The notes beneath the pieces were generated by a model. That model worked only from the letters and a program-made list of their open reading frames with translations. It did not search any database and was not told the DNA's origin. DNA of 64,000 nt, taken from positions 1,054,001 through 1,118,000 of the forward strand of contig NZ_CP135916.1 of assembly GCF_032391395.1 (NCBI RefSeq), written 5' to 3'. Source of the stretch: Sphingomonas sp. Y38-1Y (GTDB taxonomy: Bacteria > Pseudomonadota > Alphaproteobacteria > Sphingomonadales > Sphingomonadaceae). Every line of letters begins with the position of its first letter. Position 1 is the stretch's first letter. The translations under genes and the position numbers were made by a program. Shown in pieces: positions 6,469 through 19,682 of the stretch.

Positions 6469-6930
6469 ATGCGCCGCTCGCTCGCCGCGCTCGGCCTGAT
6501 CCTCGCCGCCGCCTGCTCGCCCGCGAGCGAGGCGCAGCCGCCCGCGCCGGAGCCGACGCGGGCGGCGCCGGCGGTGGTGGAGGCTTCGCCGACGCCCTCG
6601 CCGACACCGAGCGAGGGAGCGTCGCGGGTTATCGGCAAGACCGACATGACGCTGCGCGGCAAGCCGGCGTGCCGAGTCGCCTTCGCCTATGCCGGACGGC
6701 CCGATGAGGACCTGTTCTGGGAAGAGCCGTGCGCCAACGTCACCGCCAAGCTGATGACGCAGGCAGATCTCGAGTCGCTCGGCAAATGGGACCGCCTCGA
6801 CGAATTCGCGCGCAAGTTCATCGCGGCGCGGCCGGACGGCAAGGTGCTCTATGTCGAGGGCAGCTTCTCCGCCTCCGTTTATCCGATCGGCACGACCGGG
6901 GAGACCTACGAGGTTTCGGTCACCGACTGA
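6469..6930 (+). CDS. putative lipoprotein, unknown function
   Basis: A 153-residue protein with a lipoprotein signal (MRRSLAALGLILAAACSPAS; lipobox LAAAC), followed by a Pro/Ala/Thr-rich linker and a small globular C-terminal domain. That domain contains two cysteines (PACRV and EEPCANV) that could form a disulfide. The ATG at 6469 lies 4 bases after the preceding stop, so the gene is probably co-transcribed with the wall hydrolase. I do not recognise the globular domain. Confidence 0.7.
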   Translation: MRRSLAALGLILAAACSPASEAQPPAPEPTRAAPAVVEASPTPSPTPSEGASRVIGKTDMTLRGKPACRVAFAYAGRPDEDLFWEEPCANVTAKLMTQADLESLGKWDRLDEFARKFIAARPDGKVLYVEGSFSASVYPIGTTGETYEVSVTD

Positions 6931-6960
6931 GTACTTGACTCATAACTCTACATATGTTGG

Positions 6961-7269
6961 ATGTGGGGGATGGGAAGGACTCGACGCCCCTCGCCGCAAA
7001 TGCTCTCGCTTGTCGCCGCGCTCGCCGCGGCGGCGCCGCAGCGGCTGCATGGTTATGACCTGATGAAGGCGACGGGGCTCGCCTCCGGCACGCTCTATCC
7101 GCTGATGATGCGGATGACCGAGCAAGGGCTGGTCGAGGCCGAATGGCAGGCGCCGGCGCAGCCCGGCCGCCCGCCGCGCCACGCCTATCGACTGACCGCC
7201 ACCGGGCTGGAGCTCGCGCGCTCGATCGAGGACGAGGGCCGCGCGCCCGGTGGGGCGCTGCCGGCATGA
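6961..7269 (+). CDS. PadR family transcriptional regulator
   Basis: A 102-residue winged-helix regulator. The PadR signature HGYDLMKATGLASGTLYPLM is followed by the wing region (EWQAPAQPGRPPRHAYRLT) and a short C-terminal helix. The ATG at 6970 (MGRTRRP) is an equally good start. The gene ends in ATGA, overlapping the membrane-protein gene. The short intergenic region upstream is unusually AT-rich for this genome and contains the palindrome ACATATGT at 6950-6957. That could be an autoregulatory site, but this is only an inference. Confidence 0.85.
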   Translation: MWGMGRTRRPSPQMLSLVAALAAAAPQRLHGYDLMKATGLASGTLYPLMMRMTEQGLVEAEWQAPAQPGRPPRHAYRLTATGLELARSIEDEGRAPGGALPA

Positions 7270-7892
7270 GCGCCGCGCGCTGGATCGTCGCGCTCGCGGC
7301 GCTCAGCCTGGGCCAGAGCCGCCGCGCCTGGGGCGAGGCGATGATGGCCGAGTTCGAAGCCGCGGAGGAAGACGGCCAGCCGCTTCGCTTCGCGGTCGGA
7401 TGCCTGATCGGCGCGTGGCGGACGATGCCCACGAACGAGGAGGGACGCTTTCGGCTGGCGAGCTATGTCCTCGCGATCGGGTTGATGGTCCCGGTCGGCA
7501 CCGCGCTCCTGATCGCGGCGGCGCTCGGCTTTCCTTTTGTCGAGACGCGGGGCGGCGTCGCCGATTTCCTGGCGGGCGGATCGCATCCGTCGCTGCTCAA
7601 CGTCGGCAACTTCACGATCGCGCCGTCGCTGTGCGCGGTGATGCTGGCGCTGGCGCTCTGCCATCTGCCGCTCGCCTGGTGGACGCTGGACGGCAATTGG
7701 CGCGGCGTCGCGGCGATGACGCGGTTCGGGGCGGCGGCGATCACCACGCTGGCGATCGTGACGACGCTGGTCGCGCTCAATCCGCTGCCGCTCCTGATGC
7801 CGCTGGCCGCGCTGGGCGTCGAACTGGCCGGGATCGCGGTGCTGATCGGCTGGCAGGCGACGCTGACGGGGGAGGCAATCGGCACGGCATAG
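7266..7892 (+). CDS. integral membrane protein coupled to a PadR regulator
   Basis: A 208-residue protein of unknown function, translated from an ATGA overlap with the PadR gene. The N-terminal part (RRAWGEAMMAEFEAAEEDGQPLRFAVGCLIGAW) resembles the soluble segments found in membrane proteins that pair with PadR-like regulators. It is followed by about four hydrophobic segments (near residues 60-85, 115-135, 150-170 and 180-200). The PadR-membrane protein pair probably forms a regulatory unit for envelope stress or drug response, but the signal is unknown. Confidence 0.7.
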   Translation: MSAARWIVALAALSLGQSRRAWGEAMMAEFEAAEEDGQPLRFAVGCLIGAWRTMPTNEEGRFRLASYVLAIGLMVPVGTALLIAAALGFPFVETRGGVADFLAGGSHPSLLNVGNFTIAPSLCAVMLALALCHLPLAWWTLDGNWRGVAAMTRFGAAAITTLAIVTTLVALNPLPLLMPLAALGVELAGIAVLIGWQATLTGEAIGTA

Positions 7893-7922
7893 CGACCGCG
7901 CCATTACGGAGAGGGCTGGAGC

Positions 7923-8984
7923 ATGGACGGCACGAGGGTTCGGGCGCCGAGGGACGGCGCGCGCGCGGCGATGATGGGCTTGCTGCTGGCATTCGGCGGC
8001 GGAAGCGCGTGGGCGCAGACGCGCGAGGAAGTGCGGATCGCCTCCGCGCCCGGCGTCACGCTGGCGGGAACGCTGCACCTGCCGGCGCGTGGGTCGCGGC
8101 ATCCGCTCGTGGTCGTGGTCCAGGGAAACGGGCGCAATGCGCGCGGCGGTTATGGCGAGATCATCAAGCGGCTGAACGCCGACGGCATCGCCGCGCTGGA
8201 ATATGACAAGCGCGGCGTGGGACAGTCGACCGGCACCTATGAGGAGGACGTACCCAAGCTCGTCGCCGATTGCGCCGCAGCGGTGGCGGCGATGCGCGCG
8301 CGCGGCGACATCGACGGCAGCCGCATCGCGCTGTTCGGGCACAGTCAGGGCGGCGTCGTCACGCCGGCCGTCGCGGTCGGCGATCCGCGCATCGCGGCGG
8401 TGGTGATGGCGGGCGGCTCGGTCGGCGACGGGCTCCCGTATCTGAAGCGCGCGATCCGCAACCAGATGCTCGCGGCCGGTCGTCCGGCGCCCATGGTCGG
8501 GCCTGCGGTCGAGGCGGTCGGCGCGCTGCTCCAGGCGCGGATCGACAAGCGGGAAGATGCCGCGATCGTGCCGCTGCGCGCGGCGGTGGTCGAGCGGTTC
8601 CTGGCCGCCGGTTTCACGCAGGCGGAGGCGAACGGCGGGCTGGCGATGATCGACACGCCGCAGGCCTGGCAGATCGACAAGCTGCGCGCGGGCAGCGACC
8701 TCAAGGCGCTGCGCATTCCCGTGCTCGCCATCTTCGGCAGCAGGGATCCGCTGGTCGTCGCCTCCGACGAGGCACCGGCGGCGACCGCGGCGCTGGCGGG
8801 CAATCCGCGGGCGCGCGTCGTCGTGCTTCAGGGCCTGAGCCACTGGTTTCAGGAAGGCGCGGTGACCGGCAATGCCGAGGAAGTCGAGCGGCTCGGCCCC
8901 AACATGGGTTCGCCGCGGGTCGTGACGCTGGTCGGCGACTTCGTTCGCGACGCGGTCAGTCCGATGCGTGCCGCGAGCCGATGA
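7923..8984 (+). CDS. alpha/beta-fold hydrolase, exported
   Basis: A 353-residue serine hydrolase with an N-terminal hydrophobic signal ending near AWAQ. The catalytic triad is visible: nucleophile elbow GHSQGG, Asp in FGSRDPLVV and His in GLSHWF. It resembles the dienelactone hydrolase/acyl-peptidase-like alpha/beta hydrolases often annotated as 'alpha/beta fold hydrolase'; the substrate is unknown. Its last 29 bases overlap the 3' end of the opposite-strand membrane protein gene. Confidence 0.85.
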   Translation: MDGTRVRAPRDGARAAMMGLLLAFGGGSAWAQTREEVRIASAPGVTLAGTLHLPARGSRHPLVVVVQGNGRNARGGYGEIIKRLNADGIAALEYDKRGVGQSTGTYEEDVPKLVADCAAAVAAMRARGDIDGSRIALFGHSQGGVVTPAVAVGDPRIAAVVMAGGSVGDGLPYLKRAIRNQMLAAGRPAPMVGPAVEAVGALLQARIDKREDAAIVPLRAAVVERFLAAGFTQAEANGGLAMIDTPQAWQIDKLRAGSDLKALRIPVLAIFGSRDPLVVASDEAPAATAALAGNPRARVVVLQGLSHWFQEGAVTGNAEEVERLGPNMGSPRVVTLVGDFVRDAVSPMRAASR

Positions 8985-9729
8985 CGACCCCTGCGACGAC
9001 GAGGATCGCGGCGAGGATGACCGCACTCGCGATCGCCGCCGATTCCTGCCCGCCCGCCGCATAGATCGCGGCGAGCGCCCAGAGAAACACCCCGGCATAC
9101 GGCAGGTTGCCGCGACCCCGCAGCAACGCGGCGAGCGCGATTCCACCGGCGACGAGGATCACCGCGCCGCCGATCACGCCCGCTGCATCGCCACCCTCGA
9201 CCCCGTAGAAGCGCAGGCTCGCGGCGATGTTGACCGTGGTGGCGACGGTCAGCCAGGCGGCGAGCGCGCTGAGCGGCAGATAGGCGAACCAGCGCTCGCC
9301 CGTGGTCAGACGCGCATCGGACAACGCGCTATAGGCGACGAGCAGGCAGCCGAGCGTCCAGGCGATGATGACCACCGACACGGCGCCGAGGCCATAGACC
9401 TGCGTGTAGGCAGCCCACAGCGCGTTGCCGAGAAAGGCGCCCGCGGCGGGCATCCGCACGCTCGCCGCCACCGCGTTGCCGCGCTGCGCGGGCAATGCCT
9501 GCCAGATCGCGAACAGGAGCGAGCCCGTGTAGAGCGCGCCCCAGATCGAGAACGCCCAGCCTGCGGGCGTGATGAGCGTCCGCACCGCATCCGATTGCGA
9601 CCCGATCGGCTCACCCAGGCCGAGCAGCGGCAGCGTGGGCGTGACGATCTGGAGCACGGCGCAGAGCAGGACAAGAAGCTGCGGCGTGCCGAAAGCGGGC
9701 GCGGGGGCGGATTGGAAGCGGGTGGCCAT
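8956..9729 (-). CDS. TspO/MBR-like tryptophan-rich membrane protein
   Basis: A 257-residue integral membrane protein with about seven hydrophobic segments. The segment TPAGWAFSIWGALYTGSLLF resembles the PxGWxFxxxWxxLY region of TspO/MBR proteins, and further Trp-rich segments follow (NALWAAYTQVY, ERWFAYLPLSALAAWLTVAT). It is longer than bacterial TspO (about 160 residues), so it may belong to a TspO-related family of unknown ligand. It is transcribed convergently with the alpha/beta hydrolase and shares 29 bases with it. Confidence 0.65.
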   Translation of the reverse strand: MATRFQSAPAPAFGTPQLLVLLCAVLQIVTPTLPLLGLGEPIGSQSDAVRTLITPAGWAFSIWGALYTGSLLFAIWQALPAQRGNAVAASVRMPAAGAFLGNALWAAYTQVYGLGAVSVVIIAWTLGCLLVAYSALSDARLTTGERWFAYLPLSALAAWLTVATTVNIAASLRFYGVEGGDAAGVIGGAVILVAGGIALAALLRGRGNLPYAGVFLWALAAIYAAGGQESAAIASAVILAAILVVAGVVIGSRHASD

Positions 9730-9782
9730 GATCGGCCAACGCGCATACTGCAGGCTTGTTGCAGCATGCCGCGCCGAGCCCG

Positions 9783-10025
9783 TCAGTCGGCGATCGCCGA
9801 ATAGAGGAGGGTGGGGATGCCGATCAGCGCGATATAGCGCCAGATGCCCCAGTCGCCGCCCGACGCGGCTTCAGGGCGCGCCTCATGGTCGACGCAAAGG
9901 TCGAAGCGGCTCGAGAAGAAATGGCGCGGGCGGTTTTCGAGCACGCCGCGGCTGTCATGGTCGGGATGCTCGAGCATGATCGGCTCGGACCGACGATCGC
10001 CGGCATCGGGGGGCAGATTGGTCAT
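9783..10025 (-). CDS. small hypothetical protein with C-terminal membrane segment
   Basis: An 80-residue candidate whose polar N-terminal part is followed by a single hydrophobic C-terminal segment (WGIWRYIALIGIPTLLYSAIAD), as in a tail-anchored protein. The ATG at 9977 (MLEHPDHDSRG) is an alternative start. No clear ribosome-binding site is seen at either start. It lies just upstream of the TspO-like gene on the same strand. I do not recognise the family. Confidence 0.5.
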   Translation of the reverse strand: MTNLPPDAGDRRSEPIMLEHPDHDSRGVLENRPRHFFSSRFDLCVDHEARPEAASGGDWGIWRYIALIGIPTLLYSAIAD

Positions 10026-10272
10026 GGGGCAAGGTCCGCTTGTTCAGGGTGCGCGAGGCCGCGCACTGCGGCTCGTGCATCAGGGCGAAGGATCCCGAAC
10101 CCGCGCGATCCGCCGGGTCCGGGCTAGACGCGTGCGGCGAGTTGCCCGGCATGGGCGCGAAAACGCTCGAAAAGGGCGGTCGCGGACATGGGCCAAGTGT
10201 GGCCGGCGCAACGCCACTTTGCAAGCCGCAACGGCCCGTTATGGTGCGCAGCAATCAAGGAGAGGGGGCGGG

Positions 10273-10602
10273 ATGTCGGACATGGCGAGGGAGGCGGAAC
10301 AGGGCCGCGCGGCACGGATCGCGGCGGACCCGCGCTATCGCGATCTGGTGCGGCGGCGGAACCGCTTTGGCTTCGTCCTCACCGCGATCGTGCTCGTCGT
10401 CTATTTCGGCTTCATCCTGCTCGTCGCGTTCGACAAACCGCTGCTGGCGGCGCCGATCGCGGGCGGGGCGACGTCGCTGGGCATCCCGATCGGGATCGGC
10501 ATCATCCTGCTCTCGGTCGTGCTGACGGGCGTCTATGTCCGCCGCGCCAACACCGATTATGACGCGGCGCTCGCCGCCATCGTCGCGGAGCATGGCGCGT
10601 GA
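10273..10602 (+). CDS. DUF485 membrane protein, partner of ActP-type symporter
   Basis: A 109-residue protein with the DUF485 pattern: the soluble start [15 protein letters not shown], then two hydrophobic segments ([18 protein letters not shown] and [19 protein letters not shown]) and a short polar tail. In many proteobacteria a DUF485 protein is encoded directly before ActP, as here, where the genes overlap in GTGA. AAGGAG starts about 14 bases before the ATG. The region 10026-10272 upstream holds its promoter; I see no other feature there. Confidence 0.88.
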
Positions 10603-12251
10603 GGGCGACCCGGCTCGTCGCCATGCTGGCCTTGCTGGGGCTGCCGGCGGCGGCGCTGGCCGACACGATCGGTGCATCGGAGCAGCAGGCGACCAACTGG
10701 ACCGCGATCGGCATGTTCGGCGCGTTCGTGCTCGCGACGCTCGGCCTCACGCGCTGGGCGGCGGGACGGACCAAGACCGCGGCCGATTTCTATACGGCGG
10801 GCGGGGGGATCACCGGGTTCCAGAACGGGCTGGCGATTGCGGGCGACTTCATGTCGGCGGCGTCGTTCCTCGGCATCTCGGCGCAGATCTTCGCCGATGG
10901 CTATGACGGGCTGATCTACTCGATCGGGTTTCTGGTCGGCTGGCCGATCCTCCTTTTCCTGATGGCGGAGCGGTTGCGCAATCTGGGTCGCTTCACCTTT
11001 GCTGATGTCGCGAGCTTCCGCTTCGCGCAGGGGCCGGTGCGCGGCTTCGCCGCCACGTCGACGCTGCTCGTCGTGCTCTTCTACCTGATTGCGCAGATGG
11101 TGGGGGCGGGGCAGCTCATCAAATTGCTGTTCGGCCTGCCATACCCTTACGCGGTCGGCATCGTCGGCGTGCTGATGACCTTCTACGTGCTGTTCGGCGG
11201 CATGACCGCGACGACCTGGGTCCAGATCGTCAAGGCGGCGCTCCTGCTGGGTGCCGCGAGCTTCATCGCGATCGCGGTGCTGTGGCGCTACGGCTTCTCG
11301 CCCGAGGCGCTGTTCGCCGATGCGGTCGCGGTCAAGGGGACGCGCGCGATCATGGGGCCGGGCGGGTTCATCAAGGATCCAGTGAGCGCGATCTCGCTCG
11401 GCATCGCCCTGATGTTCGGCACCGCGGGGTTGCCGCACATCCTGATGCGCTTCTTCACCGTCCCCGATGCCAAGGCGGCGCGGACGTCGGTGCTGTGGGC
11501 GACGGGGTGGATCGGCTATTTCTATTGCCTGACCTTCATCATCGGCTTCGGCGCGATCGTGCTGGTGGGGACGGACCCGAGCTTCCTCGATGTCGAGGGC
11601 GGCCTGCGCGGCGGCCGCAACATGGCGGCGATCCATCTGGCGCAGGCGGTCGGCGGCAATCTGTTCCTGGGCTTCATCTCCGCCGTCGCCTTCGCGACGA
11701 TTCTCGCGGTGGTCGCCGGGCTGACGCTGTCGGGCGCGTCGGCGGTCAGCCACGACCTCTATGCCAGCGTGTTCCGGCGCGGACGCGCGGACAGCGCGGC
11801 CGAGCTTCGCGTGTCGCGGATCACCGTGCTCGTGCTAGCGGTGGTCGCGATCCTGCTGGGCATTGCGTTCGAGAAGCAGAATGTCGCGTTCATGGTCAGC
11901 CTCGCCTTTGCGCTGGCGGCCTCGAGCAACTTTCCGGTGCTGCTGCTGTCGCTGTTCTGGAGCGGATGCACGACGCGAGGCGTGGTCGCGGGCGGGCTGA
12001 CAGGGGCGCTCAGCGCGTTCGGGCTGACGATCCTGTCACCGGCCGTGTGGGTGACGGCGCTGGGCAATGCGGCGCCGATCTTCCCCTATGATAGCCCGGC
12101 GATCTTCTCGATGCCGCTTGCCTTCTTCGTCATCTGGCTGGTGTCGGTGACGGACCGCAGCGGCCGGGCGGCGGTCGATCGCAGCGGCTTCCTGGCGCAG
12201 CAGGTGCGTGCGGAGACGGGAATCGGCGCGGCGGCGGCGAGCAGCCACTAG
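10599..12251 (+). CDS. actP: cation/acetate symporter family protein (solute:sodium symporter)
   Basis: A 550-residue inner-membrane transporter of the SSS family, most like ActP, which takes up acetate and other short monocarboxylates with cations. It has a cleavable-looking signal ([13 protein letters not shown]), then about 13 membrane segments. Family features include [32 protein letters not shown], the sodium-site region and [17 protein letters not shown]. The start is GTG, overlapping the DUF485 stop. The substrate is inferred from the family and the DUF485 pairing. No acetyl-CoA synthetase gene is adjacent. Confidence 0.87.
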
Positions 12252-12322
12252 CGGGAGACTATACGCGCTGAGTCCTTGGTCGGACTGGTGTCGAACAGGC
12301 GGGAGCGCTTTCCCCTGACGAC

Positions 12323-12424
12323 CTCCCCGGCGAAGGCCGGGGTCCAGTTGAGGGACGCAGATGATCGGCGTTGCGCGTCGTCACTACGGCCTTCCCACCT
12401 GGACCCCGGCCTTCGCCGGGGGAG
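12323..12424. repeat. long inverted repeat, family C (CCCCGGCGAAGGCCGGGG)
   Basis: The left arm at 12323-12346 (CTCCCCGGCGAAGGCCGGGG then TCCAG) and the right arm at 12399-12424 are complementary except for one inserted G. About 52 bases lie between them. Each arm is itself partly palindromic. It sits between convergent actP and the GMC oxidoreductase gene; a second copy is at 42696-42799. Confidence 0.88.
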
Positions 12425-12456
12425 CAAAAGTTGGAAAGGACTGAGAACCCGCAAAC

Positions 12457-12480
12457 CCCCGCCGCATCGCTGCGGCGGGG
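12457..12480 (-). terminator. probable intrinsic terminator of the sugar operon
   Basis: The perfect 10-base arms CCCCGCCGCA (12457-12466) and TGCGGCGGGG (12471-12480) have a 4-base loop. Read on the minus strand the stem is followed by GTTTGCGG. The U-tract is short, but the hairpin starts only 7 bases past the stop of the GMC gene, the last gene of the operon. Confidence 0.6.
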
Positions 12481-12487
12481 ATTCGGA

Positions 12488-14167
12488 TCAGGCCTTCATC
12501 TGCTTGAACGCGTGGTCGGCGGCGCGGGCGGTCATCGCCATGAAGGTCAGCGACGGGTTGACGCACGACACCGACGCCATCTGCGCACCATCGGTGACGT
12601 AGAGGTTGGACGCGTCGTGCGCCTGGCTCCAGCCGTTCAGCACCGATGCGCGCGGATCGGACCCCATGCGGGCGCCGCCCATCTCGTGAATCGCGTCGCC
12701 GGGGACATGCTCGCCCTCATAGCTCGACACGTTGAGCAGGCCAGCACCCTTCAGCATCGCCTCGCCCTGCACGCGGGCATCGGCCATCATCTTGAGCTCG
12801 TTCTCGCGGAACGTGACGTCGAACTTCATCTGCGGCACGCCGAAACGATCGACCTTGGTCGGGTGCAGCGAGACGCGATTGTCCTTATAGGGCAGGCATT
12901 CGCCGAACGCGGTCATGCCGAACTTCCACGGGCCATAGCGGCGCATCGCGTGCTTCATCGACGCGCCGAAGCCGACCGGGCCGGCAGGGCTGCGTTGCGC
13001 GGAGCCCTGATAGCCATAGCCACGGCGGAAGCCCACGCCCTCCTCGCGGCCGATGTTGCGGAAGCGGGGGATATAGACCCCGCCTGGCCGCCGGCCATAT
13101 TCGATGAGGTCGGTCATGCCCGGGATCTCACCGTCGATGCTGACGCGGAAGATGTGGTCCATGACGTAGCGGCCCAAAGTCCCGCTATTGTCGAAATGGC
13201 TCCGCTCGCCGCCCGGCGCGCGCGAGTTCATCAGGATCTGCACCGATCCCATCGCCGAAGCGCACAGGAAGACGAGATCGGCGTTCACCGTCTCCGCCTG
13301 GCCGGTCTTGGCATCGATGTAGCGGACGCCGGTCACGCGCTTGGCGCGCGGATCATATTCGAGGTTGGTGACGACGGCGTCGGCCTGAAGCGTCAGCCGC
13401 CCGGTCGCCCGCGCGGCGGGCAGGGTAACCGCCTGAGTTGAGAAATAGGCGCCGAACGAGCAGCCATTGCCGCACTGGTTGCGGTGCTGGCACTTGGTGC
13501 GGTTCTGCTCCGGCTTGTCCTCGGTGATGTTGGACAGGCGCGTGTTGATGAGCTTGCGGCCGGGGAACTTGCCCTCCAGCTGCGTCTTCAGCCACTTCTC
13601 CGCGACGTTCATCGGCATTGGCGGCATGAATTCGCTGTCGGGCAGATAGGGCAGGTTCTCACGCGAGCCCGACACGCCGATATACTTCTCGACCTGGCTG
13701 TACCAGGGGACGAGGTCGTCGTAGCCGATCGGCCAGATGCCATCCACGCCTTCGCGCTTGTTCGCCTCGAAATCCTCGGGCGCCCAGCGGAAGCTCCAGC
13801 GACCCCAGATCAGCGACTTGCCGCCGACCGCGCCGGGACGGATCCAGTAGAACTTGCTCCCGTCCTCATAGGCATAGGGGTTGAGCCGGTCGTCATTGTA
13901 GAACTGGCGGTTGCTCGGCGCGACATAGCCATAGCGCGCGATCGAATAGTCGCTGTCGCGCAGCGGCTTGGGCATGATGTTGCGCGCCGGCACCTCGAAG
14001 GCGGGCTTGCCCTCATAGGTATAGTCGTCGCTGTGCTCGACCATCTTGCCGCGATCGAGCATCAGGACGCGCAGGCCCTTTTCGGTCAGTTCCTTGGCGG
14101 CATATCCGCCGCTGACTCCCGATCCGATGACGATCGCATCGAAGCGGTTGGTGGAAGCAGTCTGCAT
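12488..14167 (-). CDS. GMC family oxidoreductase (probable sugar/glucoside dehydrogenase large subunit)
   Basis: A 559-residue FAD-dependent oxidoreductase. The Rossmann motif GSGVSGGYAAKEL lies at residues 15-27, and the C-terminal GMC signature runs near DGAQMASVSCVNPSLTFMA, with His/Asn as the expected active-site pair. There is no signal peptide of its own. Its partner is the gluconate-2-dehydrogenase subunit-3 protein two genes upstream in the operon, which carries an Arg-Arg signal, so hitchhiker export through Tat is likely. By family this type oxidises sugar hydroxyls, including C3 of glucosides. No cytochrome c subunit is encoded here, so the electron acceptor is unknown. Confidence 0.87.
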   Translation of the reverse strand: MQTASTNRFDAIVIGSGVSGGYAAKELTEKGLRVLMLDRGKMVEHSDDYTYEGKPAFEVPARNIMPKPLRDSDYSIARYGYVAPSNRQFYNDDRLNPYAYEDGSKFYWIRPGAVGGKSLIWGRWSFRWAPEDFEANKREGVDGIWPIGYDDLVPWYSQVEKYIGVSGSRENLPYLPDSEFMPPMPMNVAEKWLKTQLEGKFPGRKLINTRLSNITEDKPEQNRTKCQHRNQCGNGCSFGAYFSTQAVTLPAARATGRLTLQADAVVTNLEYDPRAKRVTGVRYIDAKTGQAETVNADLVFLCASAMGSVQILMNSRAPGGERSHFDNSGTLGRYVMDHIFRVSIDGEIPGMTDLIEYGRRPGGVYIPRFRNIGREEGVGFRRGYGYQGSAQRSPAGPVGFGASMKHAMRRYGPWKFGMTAFGECLPYKDNRVSLHPTKVDRFGVPQMKFDVTFRENELKMMADARVQGEAMLKGAGLLNVSSYEGEHVPGDAIHEMGGARMGSDPRASVLNGWSQAHDASNLYVTDGAQMASVSCVNPSLTFMAMTARAADHAFKQMKA

Positions 14168-14190
14168 GGAAATCCCCTCCCGGAACGCGC

Positions 14191-15024
14191 TCAGTACCGC
14201 AGCGCGCGGAGCGTCTTGAAGCTGGTGGTGATATCGGGAAGATAGGGCGCGGGCGCCTGGTCGTTCTCGACATAGAAGTGGCGCACGCCTGCGCTCGACG
14301 GGCGGCGGAACAGGGCGGCGAAGTCGATCGTGCCCGCGCCGACCGCGGTCATCGACTTGTCCGCGCGCATGTCCTTGACGTGATAGGCGTAGAGACGCGG
14401 GCTGAGCCTGTCGATCAGCGCGCCGGCATCCTCGCCCGCACGGATCGCCCAGAACAGGTCGAGCTCCACCTTGACGAGCTTGGGATCGGTCGCGGTGAGA
14501 AAGCGGTCGTAGAGGCTGACGCCGTCGGGCTTCGTCGTGAACTCGAAGTCGTGATTGTGATAGGCGAAGCCGAGGCCCGCATTCGCCAGTCCCTCGGCAA
14601 AGCGGGTGAAGTTGGGAAGCGCCGCGGTCCAGCCCGCTTCGGTACGATACTGCTCGGTCATGTAGGGGAGGACGACGGTGTCGGCGCCGAGCGTCTTGGC
14701 GCGCGCGATCGTCCCGGCCATGTCGCCGAGCAGCAGGTCGTAGCCGACATGGATCGACGGGCAGCGAAGGCCGAGCCGGTCCATCGTCCGGCGCAGCATC
14801 GCGGCGTCCATCTTGTCATAGCCGCCGCCGCCATATTCGACTTCCTTGTAGCCGATGCGCGCGACCTTCCCGAGCGTGCCGGCCGGATCCTTCTCGAAGA
14901 TGTCGCGGACGGTGTAGAGCTGGAGGCCGATCCGCGCGATCGACTTGGCGGCGGCGAGGCGCGGGAGCGCACCGATGGCGAGCGTGGCGCCGGCGGCACC
15001 CATGAGCGTGCGGCGATCGATCAC
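14191..15024 (-). CDS. sugar phosphate isomerase/epimerase family protein, exported (TIM barrel)
   Basis: A 277-residue protein beginning MIDRRTLMGAAGATLAIGALPRL, an Arg-Arg (Tat-like) signal. The mature part is an AP-endonuclease-2-like TIM barrel (IGLQLYTVRD at its start). Candidate metal ligands are Glu in KEVEYG, Asp/Glu in VELDLFW, His in AYHVKD and Glu in FYVEND. It overlaps the upstream small-subunit gene by 4 bases. Relatives act on keto-sugars as isomerases, epimerases or C-glycoside deglycosidases. In this operon a 3-keto-sugar substrate is a reasonable inference. Confidence 0.82.
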   Translation of the reverse strand: MIDRRTLMGAAGATLAIGALPRLAAAKSIARIGLQLYTVRDIFEKDPAGTLGKVARIGYKEVEYGGGGYDKMDAAMLRRTMDRLGLRCPSIHVGYDLLLGDMAGTIARAKTLGADTVVLPYMTEQYRTEAGWTAALPNFTRFAEGLANAGLGFAYHNHDFEFTTKPDGVSLYDRFLTATDPKLVKVELDLFWAIRAGEDAGALIDRLSPRLYAYHVKDMRADKSMTAVGAGTIDFAALFRRPSSAGVRHFYVENDQAPAPYLPDITTSFKTLRALRY

Positions 15025-15593
15025 GAGCTGTAGACCTTGTTCACATTCGCATAGGGGAAGGCGCCGTTATATTCGCCGGGCACCGGGAGATATTCGCGCT
15101 CCACGGTGATGCCGATCTCCGACGTGTAATAGCCGGTGATGACGAGCTGTCGGAACCCGTCGAAGAAGGTCTTTCCGCCCGGCAGCTGGTCGTTCATCGC
15201 CAGCGTCAGCAGCGCGTCCTGCTGCGCCGGCTTCGCCTTCGCGCCCGTCACCTTGTAGTCGCGCATCGACCGCGCCTCGATCAGGTCGAGCCCTTCCAGG
15301 ATCGGCTTGCGCTCGTCCGGGTAGGACCAGTCGGCGAGCAGCTTTTCGATATAGGCGGGGACGCCCGCGGCGATCGCGCCCGGCGTGTCGGTCGTGGGGA
15401 TCACCCGCTCGGACAGCGCGGTCATCAGTGCGCGCTGCGCGGGCGTGAAGACCTGAACCGTCGCCGGTCCTTCGCTGATGACGGGCGGCGCGCCCTTCAC
15501 CTGCGCGGCGGCGGCGGCGCGCGCGATCGGGGCGAACGCCCCGGCGCCGAACATGGCGACCACGCCGGCGAGCGCGGTTCTACGGTCGATCAC
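15021..15593 (-). CDS. gluconate 2-dehydrogenase subunit 3 family protein
   Basis: A 190-residue small subunit of a GMC-type dehydrogenase. The Arg-Arg signal (MIDRRTALAGVVAMFGAGAFA) is followed by the family core FTPAQRALMTALSERVIPTTDTPGA and a C-terminal half with FFDGFRQLVITGYYTSEIG. Such subunits chaperone and export the flavoprotein subunit. It overlaps both neighbours by 4 bases (15021-15024 and 15590-15593), which implies translational coupling. The GMC gene follows after one intervening TIM-barrel gene. Confidence 0.85.
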   Translation of the reverse strand: MIDRRTALAGVVAMFGAGAFAPIARAAAAAQVKGAPPVISEGPATVQVFTPAQRALMTALSERVIPTTDTPGAIAAGVPAYIEKLLADWSYPDERKPILEGLDLIEARSMRDYKVTGAKAKPAQQDALLTLAMNDQLPGGKTFFDGFRQLVITGYYTSEIGITVEREYLPVPGEYNGAFPYANVNKVYSS

Positions 15594-16393
15594 TTGGCCA
15601 CTCCTTCAAGGTCCTGCGCGATCGCCGCTTCCGGCAGCGGGCGCACCCAGATGTTTCGGAACGATACGGGCGAGTCGTGATCCTGAAGCTGAATGGGGAG
15701 CGCATCAGGATGCGGCTTGTAGCTGGAAACGGTGCGCCAGATTGTCGTGCCCAGCATCGCCTGATGGTTCTGGACGAGCACGCCGTTCAGGAACGCGGTG
15801 ATGTAGGCGGGGCGAAGCAGCTTGCCCGACGCATCGAAGCGCGGCCGCTCGAATACCACGTCATAAGTCTGCCACTCGCCGGGCTTGCGCGAGGCGTTCA
15901 CCAGCGGCGGCTTCCAGCCATAGATCGCGCCGACCGTGCCGTCGGCATAGGTCGGGTTCTGGTACCCGTCGAGGATCTGGATCTCGTACCGCTCCATGAA
16001 CCAGATGCCGCTGTTGCCGCGATCCTGCGAGGTCCGGGTCGGCGGATTGGGGCTCATGAATTCCAGGTGGAGCTGGACGTCGCCGAAGCTCTGCTTGGTG
16101 GTGAGATTGCCCGCACCCTTGGGGATCGTCATCGCGCCGTTCGCGACCGTCCAGGGCGCCTTGCTGGGCGTCCAGGCGTCGAGCGAGCGGCCGTCGAACA
16201 GCACCACCGCGTCGGCGGGCGGGGCGCCGGGCTGGGCCGCAGGCGTGGTGACGGTGGGATAAGGGCGGTCGGCGTCGTGGACTCGCCACTTGCCGCCGGG
16301 CAGCACCGGCGTGTCCGTGAACCCCGGCTTGTCCTGTGCCGCGGCGGGGCCCGCCACCAGCACCGCCGCCAGCGCGGCCGCTCGCATCATCAT
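15590..16393 (-). CDS. DUF1080 domain-containing protein, exported (3-keto-disaccharide hydrolase type)
   Basis: A 267-residue secreted protein. I choose the first ATG of the triplet MMMRAAALAAVLVAGPAAAQ, at 16393, because AAGGAG at 16402-16407 sits 8 bases upstream. The DUF1080 fold covers about residues 65-260 (VVLFDGRSLDAW, FGDVQLHLEFMSP, NSGIWFMERYEIQILDGY, FRNIWVRPL). Members of this family hydrolyse or eliminate 3-keto-glycosides made by a C3 dehydrogenase. The neighbouring GMC pair and TIM-barrel proteins fit that pathway. Confidence 0.88.
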   Translation of the reverse strand: MMMRAAALAAVLVAGPAAAQDKPGFTDTPVLPGGKWRVHDADRPYPTVTTPAAQPGAPPADAVVLFDGRSLDAWTPSKAPWTVANGAMTIPKGAGNLTTKQSFGDVQLHLEFMSPNPPTRTSQDRGNSGIWFMERYEIQILDGYQNPTYADGTVGAIYGWKPPLVNASRKPGEWQTYDVVFERPRFDASGKLLRPAYITAFLNGVLVQNHQAMLGTTIWRTVSSYKPHPDALPIQLQDHDSPVSFRNIWVRPLPEAAIAQDLEGVAK

Positions 16394-16406
16394 CGTTCCT
16401 GCTCCT

Positions 16407-17315
16407 TCAGGCCGCGTCGATCGCGCGATAGGCGGCGACCAGCCGATCCTCGCCCGCGCGGCCCTTTGCCGAATTGCCATGTTCCATGCCGATTACGCCC
16501 GAATAGCGGCGCCCGCGCAGCCATTTGACGATATTGGCATAGTTGATCTCGCCCGATCCCGGCTCCTTGCGGCCGGGATTGTCGCCGAACTGGATATAGC
16601 CGATCTCCGACCAGCATTCCGTCATCGCGGGGATCAGGTTCCCCGACTGGATCTGCTCGTGATAGAGGTCGGCGAGGATCTTGACCGAGGGGCGATCGAC
16701 GCCGCGCGCGACGGCGTAACCCTGCGCGATCGTCTGCATATAGACGCCCGGATGATCGGTGCGCGTGTTGAGCGGCTCCATCACCAGCACCAGGCCCGAG
16801 GCCTCGACGAGGTCGGCGGCGCGGCGCATCGTGTCGACGACGCGCGCGGTCTGGACGTCGAGCGGGATACGCGGGTCCATGAAGCCGGTGACGACGGTCG
16901 CGTGGCGCGCGTTCAGCCGCTTGGCGACGTCGAGCGACGCCTTGATCCCGGCAAGATAGCTTTCGCGATCGGCATCGTCGTTGCCGCCCAGGCGCGGGCG
17001 CATCTCGCTCCAGCGCGGCATGCCGGCGACGAACACGCCCATCGTCATGCCGCGATCCGCCAGCATCTTGGCCATGCGCGTCTGCTCGGCGACGGGGCGC
17101 TTGGCCGCCTCGTTATCCTCCCAGGCGGTGAAGCCCTGGTCGGCGGCATAGGCGATCTGTTCGAACAGCCCGCCGCGACTGGCGAAGCTGCCCTCGTGCG
17201 GGGCATAGCCCAGCGAGAAGCGTGCAGCGTTCGACCGCGGCGCCTGCGCACAGGCGGCGGCGAGCGGCGCGGCGACCGCGGCGGCGCCGATCAGGGCCCG
17301 GCGCGACAGCGTCAT
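16407..17315 (-). CDS. hydroxypyruvate isomerase-like TIM-barrel protein, exported
   Basis: A 302-residue protein with the signal MTLSRRALIGAAAVAAPLAA followed by ACAQ: a twin-arginine motif together with a lipobox (LAAAC), so it may be a Tat-exported lipoprotein. The mature part is a sugar isomerase TIM barrel with metal-ligand candidates Glu in VMEPLNTR, Asp/His in ILADLYHEQIQ, Asp in IQFGDNPGR and Glu in GMEHG. The DNPGR segment is typical of hydroxypyruvate isomerase/Hyi-like proteins. Its ATG overlaps the MFS gene's stop (17312-17315). Confidence 0.84.
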   Translation of the reverse strand: MTLSRRALIGAAAVAAPLAAACAQAPRSNAARFSLGYAPHEGSFASRGGLFEQIAYAADQGFTAWEDNEAAKRPVAEQTRMAKMLADRGMTMGVFVAGMPRWSEMRPRLGGNDDADRESYLAGIKASLDVAKRLNARHATVVTGFMDPRIPLDVQTARVVDTMRRAADLVEASGLVLVMEPLNTRTDHPGVYMQTIAQGYAVARGVDRPSVKILADLYHEQIQSGNLIPAMTECWSEIGYIQFGDNPGRKEPGSGEINYANIVKWLRGRRYSGVIGMEHGNSAKGRAGEDRLVAAYRAIDAA

Positions 17316-18562
17316 GCGACCATCCGGCCGCTTGTGTCGTCGCGGAAGGTGAACTGGAAGAGGAGCGCGATGACCGCGGCGGCGATCGCCGGATACCACC
17401 ACATCGCCTGCCAGTCGGCGATCGTCGGGCTGGCGGGAAGCTGCGCATACAGAAGCCCGCCGATCTGCGAGCCCAGCAGCATGCCGAGGCCATAGGTGAA
17501 CAGCGTCAGCATCCCCTGCGCCTGTGCATTGACGCCCTTCGGCTGGGCGATCGTCTGCGTATAGATCGCGCCGGCGACGAAGAAGAAGTCGTAGCAGACG
17601 CCGTGGAGCGCGACGCCCAGATACACCGCCCACAGCCCCGAGCCGCCATCGCCGATCGCGAACAGCGCATAGCGCAGCGCCCAAGCGGCCATGCCGACCA
17701 GCAGCAGCGGCTTCACGCCGAAGCGGCGATAGAGGAACGGCATCGAGAACATGAAGACGAGTTCGGACATCTGCCCGATCGCCAGCGTCCCGCCGACATT
17801 CTCGATCCCCGCCGCGCCGACATAGGGCGAGGCATAGGCATAATACATGGCGAGCGGGATCGAGATCAGCGTCGCGCAGGCGACGAACACCAGGTACGAG
17901 CGCTGGCGCATCAGCCCGAACGCCTCGACACAGAGCACCTGGCGCACCAGGCTCTCGTCGCTCGGCTTGTCGGGGGCCACGTTGGGGAGGGTGATGCAAT
18001 AGAGGCCGAGCGCGACCGAGACGACCGCGGCGATCGTGAAGATCTGCGGGCTGGCCGACAGCCCGGCCCAGCCGATGATGAGGCCCGAGGCGATCCAGCC
18101 GATCGTCCCGAATGCGCGCACGAACGGAAAGCGGTCGACACGCTCGCCGAAGCTCTTGAGCGCGATCGTGTTCGCCAGGCCCACGGTCGGCATGTAGAGG
18201 ATCATGTAGCAGAGCAGCAGCAGGACGAAGGTGCTGCCCCCCTCCGGCGTGATGAAGCGCGGCAGCACGAACAGCAGCGCGCCGCCGACCAGATGCAGGA
18301 TCACCATCAGCGACTTGGGGCTGAAGAAGCGCGACGCGGCCATGCCGAGCAGGAAGGAGCCGACGATCGAGGCGATCGGCCCGACCGAGAACGCGTTGGC
18401 GATGAGGTTGCCGATGCCCACCGTCTGCATGACCAGGCCGAGCGTCACCGCGCCCGCGCCCCAGACGAAGAATTGCATGAACATCAAGGCGCTGAGACGC
18501 AGCGTCAGCGCCCCCGAGCCCGGACGCGCGAGCCCGTCCATCGTCCCTTCCGCAGCGGTCAT
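17312..18562 (-). CDS. NupG-like MFS transporter
   Basis: A 416-residue, 12-segment major facilitator protein of the nucleoside:H+ symporter (NupG/XapB-like) branch. The segments LRLSALMFMQFFVWGAGAV and LGVALHGVCYDFFFVAGAIY plus AQAQGMLTLFTYGLGM are characteristic. It is the first gene of the six-gene operon, divergent from the LacI gene. Given its downstream partners, uptake of a sugar or glycoside derivative is more likely than of nucleosides; this is inference from context. Confidence 0.85.
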   Translation of the reverse strand: MTAAEGTMDGLARPGSGALTLRLSALMFMQFFVWGAGAVTLGLVMQTVGIGNLIANAFSVGPIASIVGSFLLGMAASRFFSPKSLMVILHLVGGALLFVLPRFITPEGGSTFVLLLLCYMILYMPTVGLANTIALKSFGERVDRFPFVRAFGTIGWIASGLIIGWAGLSASPQIFTIAAVVSVALGLYCITLPNVAPDKPSDESLVRQVLCVEAFGLMRQRSYLVFVACATLISIPLAMYYAYASPYVGAAGIENVGGTLAIGQMSELVFMFSMPFLYRRFGVKPLLLVGMAAWALRYALFAIGDGGSGLWAVYLGVALHGVCYDFFFVAGAIYTQTIAQPKGVNAQAQGMLTLFTYGLGMLLGSQIGGLLYAQLPASPTIADWQAMWWYPAIAAAVIALLFQFTFRDDTSGRMVA

Positions 18563-18628
18563 CCCGTCCTCCCCGTGGGTGCGGTCGCGCCGCCCATCGA
18601 ATCGAAGCCTATTGGCGATGATCCGCGA

Positions 18629-18642
18629 TGTAAAGGATTACA
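18629..18642. promoter_or_regulatory. candidate LacI-family operator
   Basis: The perfect inverted repeat TGTAA-AGGA-TTACA lies in the 124-base divergent region between the MFS and LacI genes. It is AT-rich against a GC-rich background and is 44 bases upstream of the LacI start. The position suits joint control of the operon and autoregulation of the repressor. Confidence 0.6.
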
Positions 18643-18686
18643 CGGGAGGGATCGACACGCCCCGCCGCACGCCGCATGAAGTGGCC

Positions 18687-19682
18687 ATGACGACGATCAT
18701 CGAGGTCGCGGCGGTCGCGGGGGTTTCCACCGCCACGGTCTCGCGTGTGCTGACGCGGCCCGATCGGGTGGCCGAGCCGACGCGGCTTCGCGTGCTCGAA
18801 GTCGTCGAGACGCTGGGTTACCAGCCCAACATGGCGGCGCGGAGCCTGCGCACGCTGCGCGCGGCGCGGATCCTGCTGACCGTGCCCGACATCTCGAACC
18901 CGTTCTTCGCGAGCGTCATTCGCGGTGCGGAGGAAGCGGCGCGCGACGCAGGCTATGCCGTGGTGCTGGGCGACACGCGCCACGATGTCGAGGTCGAGGA
19001 CCAATATGCCGACATGTTGCTGCGGCGAGAGGTCGACGGGCTGGTCTTCCTGGGCCATCGGCTGCCCGAGCGGCTGGCGGCTTTGGTCGGGCAGGGCGAG
19101 GGGCGGGCGCCGATCGTCAACGGGTGCGAATATTCGCCCGATATCGGCGTGCCGAGCGTGCATATCGACAATGCGGCGGCGGCGGCGGATGCGATGGAGC
19201 ACCTGATCGCGCTTGGCCACCGCTCGATCGGGATCGTCACCGGACCGACGATCAGCCCGATCACGCGCGATCGCCTTGCCGGGGCGATGGCGGCGGCGGC
19301 GCGCGTGGGGATCGAGCCCGAGGTGCGGACCGGCGACTATTCGGCCAACTCCGCCTTTGCCGCGGCGCGCGAGCTGATCGCGGGCGGCGTGACGGCGATC
19401 TTCTGCTTCAGCGACGAGATGGCGCTGGGCGCGATCGGTGCGGTGGGGCAGGCGGGGCTGTCCTGCCCCGGCGACGTGTCGGTGGTGGGGTTCGACGACC
19501 TGCCGCTCGCCCGCTTCTGTCACCCGGCGCTGACGAGCGTCGCCCAGCCCAAGGGCGCGATCGGGCGGCAGGCGATCGAGTTGCTGGTCGAGATCCTGCG
19601 CGGCGGCGCGCCGGCGGCCGCGGCGGTGACGCTGGCGCACGAGCTGGTGGTGCGCGGGAGTACGGCGCCGCCGCGGGCTTGA
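18687..19682 (+). CDS. LacI family transcriptional regulator
   Basis: A 331-residue repressor. The N-terminal DNA-binding domain TTIIEVAAVAGVSTATVSRVL fixes the start at 18687, although the frame is open further upstream. It continues with the hinge region YQPNMAARSLRT. The periplasmic-binding-protein-like effector domain (ILLTVPDISNPFFASVIRGA, VDGLVFLGH, CFSDEMALGAIGA, VVGFDDLPLARFCHPALTSV) binds a sugar-type ligand. Divergent orientation to the sugar operon makes it that operon's probable regulator. Confidence 0.92.
   Translation: MTTIIEVAAVAGVSTATVSRVLTRPDRVAEPTRLRVLEVVETLGYQPNMAARSLRTLRAARILLTVPDISNPFFASVIRGAEEAARDAGYAVVLGDTRHDVEVEDQYADMLLRREVDGLVFLGHRLPERLAALVGQGEGRAPIVNGCEYSPDIGVPSVHIDNAAAAADAMEHLIALGHRSIGIVTGPTISPITRDRLAGAMAAAARVGIEPEVRTGDYSANSAFAAARELIAGGVTAIFCFSDEMALGAIGAVGQAGLSCPGDVSVVGFDDLPLARFCHPALTSVAQPKGAIGRQAIELLVEILRGGAPAAAAVTLAHELVVRGSTAPPRA

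Follow-up and report, generated by a model that had tools for sequence, protein, structure and literature searches.

The window analysed here, a stretch of 64,000 nucleotides from Sphingomonas sp. Y38-1Y (contig NZ_CP135916.1, positions 1,054,001 to 1,118,000), contains an operon of six genes next to a divergent gene for a LacI-family regulator. We propose, with a probability of about 0.72, that this operon encodes the exported half of a pathway that degrades glycosides by oxidation, elimination, hydration and reduction. The proposal builds on gene content, gene order, conservation, motif-based signals and active-site residues.

The reactions, the direction of transport, the substrate, the regulation and the use of unlinked genes by the operon are predicted in the following scheme. 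Outside the inner membrane, a GMC flavoprotein (GMC) and its small subunit (SUB3) would oxidise the C3 hydroxyl of a glycosyl residue and pass the electrons to a c-type cytochrome. The TIM-barrel protein TIM2 would then break the bond by beta-elimination across C1-C2, yielding the aglycone or second sugar and 2-hydroxy-3-keto-glucal. The DUF1080 protein would cleave likewise, perhaps on alpha-linked or disaccharide substrates, and a second barrel, TIM1, would isomerise or epimerise a keto-sugar intermediate. The MFS protein would bring the product inside, where a cytoplasmic hydratase (HYD) and a Gfo/Idh reductase (GFO), encoded elsewhere in this genome, would complete the conversion to glucose. 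LacI would repress the operon through a 14-bp operator.

The features are, in order of position:

12488..14167, minus strand: GMC flavoprotein dehydrogenase, 559 amino acids; Pfam PF00732/PF05199 (GMC_oxred_N/C)
14191..15024, minus strand: TIM2, Tat-signal candidate 3-keto-glucoside 1,2-lyase (beta-eliminase) of the AtOGE/AL1/BT1 type; AP_endonuc_2, 53 bits
15021..15593, minus strand: SUB3, Gluconate_2-dh3 small subunit with Tat signal IDRRTAL; PF13618, 108.1 bits
15590..16393, minus strand: DUF1080 protein (3keto-disac_hyd) with Sec-type signal; PF06439, 145.7 bits
16407..17315, minus strand: TIM1, Tat-signal hydroxypyruvate-isomerase-like TIM barrel; AP_endonuc_2, 114.5 bits
17312..18562, minus strand: MFS protein, predicted importer, nucleoside:H+ symporter-like (Nuc_H_symport); PF03825, 283.7 bits
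18629..18642, plus strand: candidate LacI operator TGTAAAGGATTACA, a shared intergenic word between lacI and the MFS gene
about 18687..19682, plus strand: LacI-family regulator, divergent; PF00356 and Peripla_BP_3

Proposed enzymes of bond cleavage

In its sequence, its fold and its active site alike, TIM2 matches solved 3-keto-beta-glucoside lyases. All eight active-site positions of AtOGE (E39, H66, H132, H134, E161, D163, H189 and E233, AtOGE numbering) are identical in TIM2, and these metal or catalytic residues are invariant in 81 of 81 sequences. Structure models were made for TIM1 and TIM2; the TIM2 model shows the fold of the AtOGE/AL1/BT1 lyases, and AL1 and BT1 score at least 2 Z above IolE in the structure comparison. 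TIM2 is thus a candidate 3-keto-beta-glucoside 1,2-lyase, as judged from alignment and model, and this match, with its eight shared AtOGE residues, gives good support to the 3-keto-glycoside pathway that an earlier interpretation of the window made without database searches (the sequence-only reading) had put forward. An assignment of TIM2 as the inosose dehydratase IolE was rejected (47 bits against TIGR04379, with a cut-off of 290). Elsewhere, at L063, two tandem genes (8590-10468) with N-termini identical as printed, each 34% identical to TIM2, adjoin GMC and SUB3 genes.

The DUF1080 protein matches PDB entry 4qhz with an E-value of 6.9e-57, and its profile also reaches 8rr2, 8tda and 8v31. 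By our own count, its invariant QDH histidine pairs with chain residue 250 of 8rr2 in the alignment; H275 of a Bacteroides lyase, given in an excerpt of PMC13273386, is a possible counterpart.

The full cassette in related genomes

Genomes were scanned with the SUB3 alignment and the best 80 of 305 loci were kept, nearly all from Sphingomonas and other Sphingomonadales; hits below 60 bits and weaker overlapping hits were dropped from the gene counts. TIM2, GMC and SUB3 are present in all 80 loci, TIM1 in 78 and the DUF1080 protein in 74. Three further genes, encoding another TIM barrel (HYD), a Gfo/Idh/MocA protein (GFO) and a cytochrome c, were each found in 78 of 80 loci; the two loci without them (L124 and L139) are short contigs of 7.1 and 6.2 kb. 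An orthologue or relative of the MFS protein occurs in 62 loci and another MFS protein in 15.

In 66 of the 80 loci the order TIM1-DUF1080-SUB3-TIM2-GMC is uninterrupted by other searched-for genes, which is more than chance would give. The usual order in Sphingomonas is lacI (divergent), MFS, HYD, GFO, cytochrome c, TIM1, DUF1080, SUB3, TIM2, GMC. In a second arrangement (15 loci), another MFS protein and GFO are encoded divergently. A plasmid of Sphingomonas parapaucimobilis also carries the cassette, with RefSeq names.

The cassette is not universal in the family at large, since any SUB3 match was found in 26 of 149 sampled genomes and a close match (at least 62%) in ten. From the 26 genomes, 20 loci were taken. 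Among the 13 loci with a close SUB3, the window included, eight have all five core genes, two are without TIM1, their DUF1080 protein being a distant one, and three consist of a lone GMC/SUB3 pair. Further afield, Xanthomonas sacchari, Hymenobacter, Palleronia and Paracoccus plasmids share 65-73% (HYD), 47-53% (DUF1080), 47-48% (GMC), 31-38% (TIM2), 27-34% (TIM1) and 27-28% (SUB3) identity with the queries, hits below 40 bits having been dropped. A cytochrome c and a nucleoside permease are additionally annotated in the Xanthomonas and Hymenobacter stretches; the Palleronia and Paracoccus stretches have an annotated ATP-binding cassette (ABC) importer, with no cytochrome c listed.

The three additional genes suggest how the pathway might be completed. 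For HYD of the related locus L051, a full-length match of 606 bits was obtained with PDB entry 8ro4, a 2-hydroxy-3-keto-glucal hydratase by name, compared to 47 bits for IolE; 2-hydroxy-3-keto-glucal is the product of AtOGE, according to the available part of PMC10628242. By analogy, GFO fits the reductase step described in excerpts for Agrobacterium (PMC10628242) and for levoglucosan degradation in Bacillus smithii (PMC7676230). The cytochromes contain a CxxCH motif in 78 of 78 cases and a signal-like N-terminus in 70 of 78. The electron carrier and end product, which the sequence-only reading had left open, can therefore be narrowed down, as 78 of 80 loci encode such a cytochrome c in the cluster and the hydratase and reductase together predict glucose. 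With glucose as the predicted product, the missing sugar kinase is no longer puzzling.

Signals and topology

Signals were assessed by motif and hydropathy rather than by SignalP, using the start codons nearest to that of the query and dropping hits below 45% identity. Two adjacent arginines in the first 22 residues are conserved in SUB3 (79/79), TIM2 (77/80) and TIM1 (75/78), in agreement with the Tat signals predicted earlier for these three proteins. They are found in nine of 73 DUF1080 proteins, three of 78 cytochromes and none of the HYD (77), GFO (78) and GMC (67) proteins. A hydrophobic N-terminal stretch, defined by a mean hydropathy above 1.6 over 14 residues, is present in SUB3 (74/79), TIM2 (74/80), TIM1 (60/78), DUF1080 (64/73) and cytochrome c (70/78), compared to GMC (2/67), HYD (0/77) and GFO (0/78). 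A test for an AxA motif gave no discrimination, with 77 of 78 GFO proteins positive.

From these counts, oxidation and cleavage look external, and hydration and reduction cytoplasmic. The idea of an exported pathway thus stands for oxidation and cleavage, where the Tat motifs are conserved, but not for all of the chemistry, as HYD and GFO have no such signals. A related Rhizobium eliminase and HYD both lack a signal peptide and the eliminase adjoins ABC importer genes, for which reason cleavage may take place inside or outside, depending on lineage.

GMC and SUB3

The GMC protein has a flavin adenine dinucleotide motif (GSGVSG) and a cysteine motif, C226-x5-C232-x3-C236, of which the C-x5-C-x3-C pattern is kept in 67 of 67 orthologues. 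Its closest PDB chains are fructose dehydrogenase and glucose dehydrogenase (E-values 7.6e-38 to 3.2e-36), and the cysteine pattern presumably resembles the 3Fe-4S motif of these enzymes. As it has no signal of its own, GMC probably travels with SUB3, which likely ferries it over the membrane. A search of solved structures gave no relevant match for SUB3 (best E-value 0.18).

Elsewhere in the same genome a GMC and a SUB3 gene, with 71% and 63% identity to those of the window, stand alone as a pair (L013, G000:C1:2197000-2214000, at 6599-8906; G000:C1 is its single contig), with no lyase, DUF1080 or transporter gene within the fetched stretch. Similar lone pairs occur in L057 and L059. At L014 (G000:C1:2359000-2377000, 8932-11912), a Gluconate_2-dh3-like protein with a twin-arginine N-terminus adjoins a GMC protein (27%) and a cytochrome c (47%); this is probably a different oxidation system.

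TIM1

The nearest families of TIM1 are the hydroxypyruvate and 2-oxo-tetronate isomerases, enzymes that shift a carbonyl. It remains under both NCBIfam cut-offs, with 125 of 353.45 bits for hydroxypyruvate isomerase (TIGR03234) and 109 of 325 bits for the other family. The structure model is of moderate quality, with a predicted local distance difference test (pLDDT) score of 75.2 and values below 50 for residues 183-194. We propose that TIM1 is an exported keto-sugar isomerase or epimerase. It was earlier suggested to carry a lipobox, but a lipobox-like cysteine is kept in none of 78 orthologues, and its assignment as a lipoprotein was rejected.

Two more specific roles of TIM1 can be considered. 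If galactosides such as lactose were the substrate, GMC would form 3-keto-galactosides and TIM1 would be a C4 epimerase, like YcjR of Escherichia coli, converting them to 3-keto-glucosides ahead of cleavage; we regard this as rather unlikely. Somewhat less probable still is that TIM1 interconverts 2-keto and 3-keto forms, rescuing those glycosides in which the keto group has moved from C3 to C2 and which the lyase cannot use. The nature of its nearest families is consistent with this role, and excerpts of PMC10628242 report that C-glucosides drift spontaneously from the 3-keto to the 2-keto form and that in simulations a 2-keto form misfits the eliminase PuCGE. The wide margin by which both family cut-offs are missed, however, argues against it.

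A reduced form of the cassette and the unlinked hydratase-reductase pair

In the window operon there is no HYD, GFO or cytochrome c gene between the MFS and TIM1 genes, which overlap by 4 bp. In a survey of the genus, an MFS match was found in 77 of 201 genomes and 20 loci were examined, namely the ten highest-scoring in order (ties lower down skipped) and others by choice, with hits below 50 bits dropped. The four loci with the highest-scoring MFS proteins (777-784 bits) have the six-gene form; in the remaining 16, the HYD, GFO and cytochrome c genes are all present. At L055, from another genus (G103:C1:2044500-2060500), the five core genes are present and MFS, HYD, GFO and cytochrome c are absent in its 16 kb, possibly an independent reduction. 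ATGA overlaps are also seen at the MFS/HYD and cytochrome/TIM1 junctions of L051, so that a clean loss would be allowed, the direction of change being a supposition.

At the cut-offs used, all six genomes with a reduced form, including G103, encode one HYD with an adjacent GFO elsewhere; an in-frame TGA is present in the HYD gene of G174. In the genome of the window this pair lies at G000:C1:3574854-3577009, beside genes for GMC (46%), SUB3, GH3 and MFS_2, and cytochromes at 43-47% identity are encoded in three places. The surrounding locus L015 (G000:C1:3563000-3580000, 6672-16420), with GMC, SUB3, MFS_2, HYD, GFO and a GH3 glycosidase, is itself a second locus of the 3-keto-glycoside type.

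The reduced form could also be read as a fully external pathway, in which oxidation, cleavage and isomerisation are all external and the imported compound is a finished keto-sugar or hexose. Loss of the three genes would then have freed the operon from HYD, GFO and cytochrome c, and the unlinked pair would serve another substrate. Five genomes of the genus share the reduced operon, all six genes being 69-89% identical to those of the window, and the operon thus persists without linked HYD, GFO and cytochrome genes; moreover, the HYD-GFO locus lacks the operator described below and has its own GMC/SUB3, GH3 and MFS_2 genes. On the other hand, HYD and GFO stay clustered with the core genes in 78 of 80 related loci, and the five genomes and G103 all retain an adjacent HYD-GFO pair elsewhere. 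We therefore consider a fully external pathway improbable and prefer the exported half-pathway completed by unlinked cytoplasmic enzymes. That the cluster would instead act on inositols or polyols, with IolE/IolI-like barrels and a GMC polyol dehydrogenase, is highly implausible, given the 47 bits of TIM2 against an IolE cut-off of 290, the lead of at least 2 Z of AL1 and BT1 over IolE, and the preference of the linked hydratase for glucal hydratase (606 bits) over IolE (47 bits).

LacI and its candidate operator

The intergenic region between lacI and the MFS gene contains a word with palindromic arms, TGTAA-N4-TTACA. A LacI orthologue (70-78% identity) is divergent to the MFS gene in 50 of the 62 loci with the same MFS protein, and of 50 related intergenic regions between lacI and MFS (LacI identity at least 60%, gap below 400 bases), 45 contain the 12-mer core of the operator, which the window has as well, on the other strand. 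The predicted operator is present within two mismatches in 20 of 20 related loci, the four reduced ones included. In the reduced loci L170-L173 it is kept upstream of the MFS gene, with no LacI match beside that gene within the fetched stretch.

The site at 18629-18642 is the sole exact copy in the genome. Only the exact site was counted, since a backward control pattern gave three matches at two-mismatch stringency. An operator-like site with two mismatches, TGTAAACGGTTACA, is located at G000:C1:535675-535688. The idea that the unlinked HYD-GFO locus shares the operator was rejected, as no such site was found in L015 within two mismatches.

Comparison with known systems

The lactose pathway of Caulobacter crescentus, as described in the available part of PMC9007349, uses periplasmic LacABC and the DUF1080 protein CCNA_01705; the fate of 3-ketogalactose and the roles of a transporter, two epimerases and a reductase are left open there. 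LacABC has three dehydrogenase subunits, whereas the window operon encodes GMC and SUB3 only, with no third subunit and no cytochrome c gene, and it has no linked reductase, unlike the Caulobacter locus. In a Caulobacter vibrioides control genome both PF06439 and PF13618 gave matches.

An Agrobacterium operon is given as GlycDH-TAT-AtOGE-AtHYD-Gfo in excerpts of PMC10628242. It has in common with the cassette a flavoenzyme dehydrogenase with a Tat-signal partner, a metal-dependent TIM-barrel beta-eliminase, and the hydratase/Gfo reductase chemistry. The window operon combines the dehydrogenase, the Tat partner and the eliminase, but not the hydratase and Gfo reductase, of which unlinked copies are present. 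We take LacA and GlycDH to be GMC-type, a term absent from the texts of PMC9007349 and PMC10628242. The text of PMC10628242 makes no mention of periplasm or cytoplasm. TIM2 of the window is of the Tat type, while the related Rhizobium eliminase has no signal, and the window adds DUF1080 and TIM1.

In the Alistipes and Bacteroides systems the first oxidation is made by NAD-dependent Gfo/Idh-type enzymes, not by a GMC protein. Their AL1 and BT1 are, by PDB title, 3-keto-beta-glucopyranoside-1,2-lyase barrels, as proposed for TIM2, and BT2157 (of the BT2156-2160 genes) is a DUF1080 protein named 3-ketotrehalose hydrolase in the available part of PMC9007349. The levoglucosan pathway of Bacillus smithii (LgdA/B1/B2/C) has the same four steps of oxidation, elimination, hydration and reduction, but with an NAD-dependent dehydrogenase and sugar ABC transporter genes, and no exported enzymes are described in the available excerpt (PMC7676230).

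The kind of route is not new, contrary to what the sequence-only reading had supposed for a GMC-based exported version: LacABC with DUF1080 and a flavoenzyme GlycDH-OGE-HYD-Gfo system are published, as far as the available excerpts go (PMC9007349, PMC10628242), the GMC label there being our own assumption. In the open-licence literature, neither the division into an exported lyase and a cytoplasmic hydratase-reductase nor the reduced six-gene form was found described, and nothing was found on a GMC-plus-subunit glucoside 3-dehydrogenase or on gluconate 2-dehydrogenase subunit 3 with GMC and 3-keto; the membrane-split cassette or the reduced form may be partly in print already.

A tentative extension, to which we give somewhat less than even odds, is that the cassette performs the chemistry of GH4-like glycosidases split by the inner membrane. 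Outside, flavin and cytochrome c would hand the electrons on to the respiratory chain and the bond would be broken by elimination; the unsaturated 2-hydroxy-3-keto-glucal itself would be imported, then hydrated and reduced inside with NAD(P)H. TIM1, as a new exported epimerase or isomerase, would broaden the substrate range, for instance to galactosides as well as glucosides. If true, the transporter, epimerases and reductase of the Caulobacter lactose locus would thereby have their roles settled, and glycosides would be seen to feed a redox loop that links NAD(P)H with the respiratory chain.

A widespread and mostly unassigned cassette thereby gains testable roles, with TIM2 as lyase, HYD as hydratase, GFO as reductase and cytochrome c as carrier, and Sphingomonas allows the questions left open in PMC9007349 to be put directly to the test. 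The reduced lineage offers a natural experiment on how far cytoplasmic enzymes encoded at a distance can serve the exported half. The conserved 14-bp candidate operator and the exported barrel TIM1 are new pointers.

Gene models and neighbouring loci

All seven genes score above their Pfam cut-offs on the strands given above, which bears out the earlier description of six co-directional genes and a divergent lacI. They had also been called mostly overlapping, which holds for three of the five junctions (4 bp each); at the remaining two the genes are 13 and 23 bp apart. Two start sites required correction: for LacI, taken from a long open reading frame at 18231, a start at or close to 18687 is most likely (in L051 the orthologue begins four residues earlier), and the DUF1080 protein probably starts at 16393 instead of 16480. 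The Pfam and NCBIfam scoring used TIM1 at 16407-17285 (10 residues short), DUF1080 from 16480 and LacI from 18231, and all later analyses used the corrected starts of these three. The gathering scores of PF06439 (26.8) and PF13618 (23.4) are passed by the DUF1080 protein and SUB3, respectively. The MFS protein reaches 275.2 bits against the NCBIfam nucleoside permease TIGR00889, under its cut-off of 446.1, and passes that of the broader PF03825.

Upstream lies a gene for an ActP-like acetate symporter (10599..12251, plus strand). With six DUF1080 and five Gluconate_2-dh3 matches in the genome (3.58 Mb, one contig), the window operon is one of several such loci. At L016 (G000:C1:2850000-2869000), a single open frame (9457-14256) with two DUF1080 matches lies beside two Gfo/Idh-like proteins with twin-arginine N-termini, and is perhaps an NAD-type exported 3-keto-glycoside locus of the same genome.

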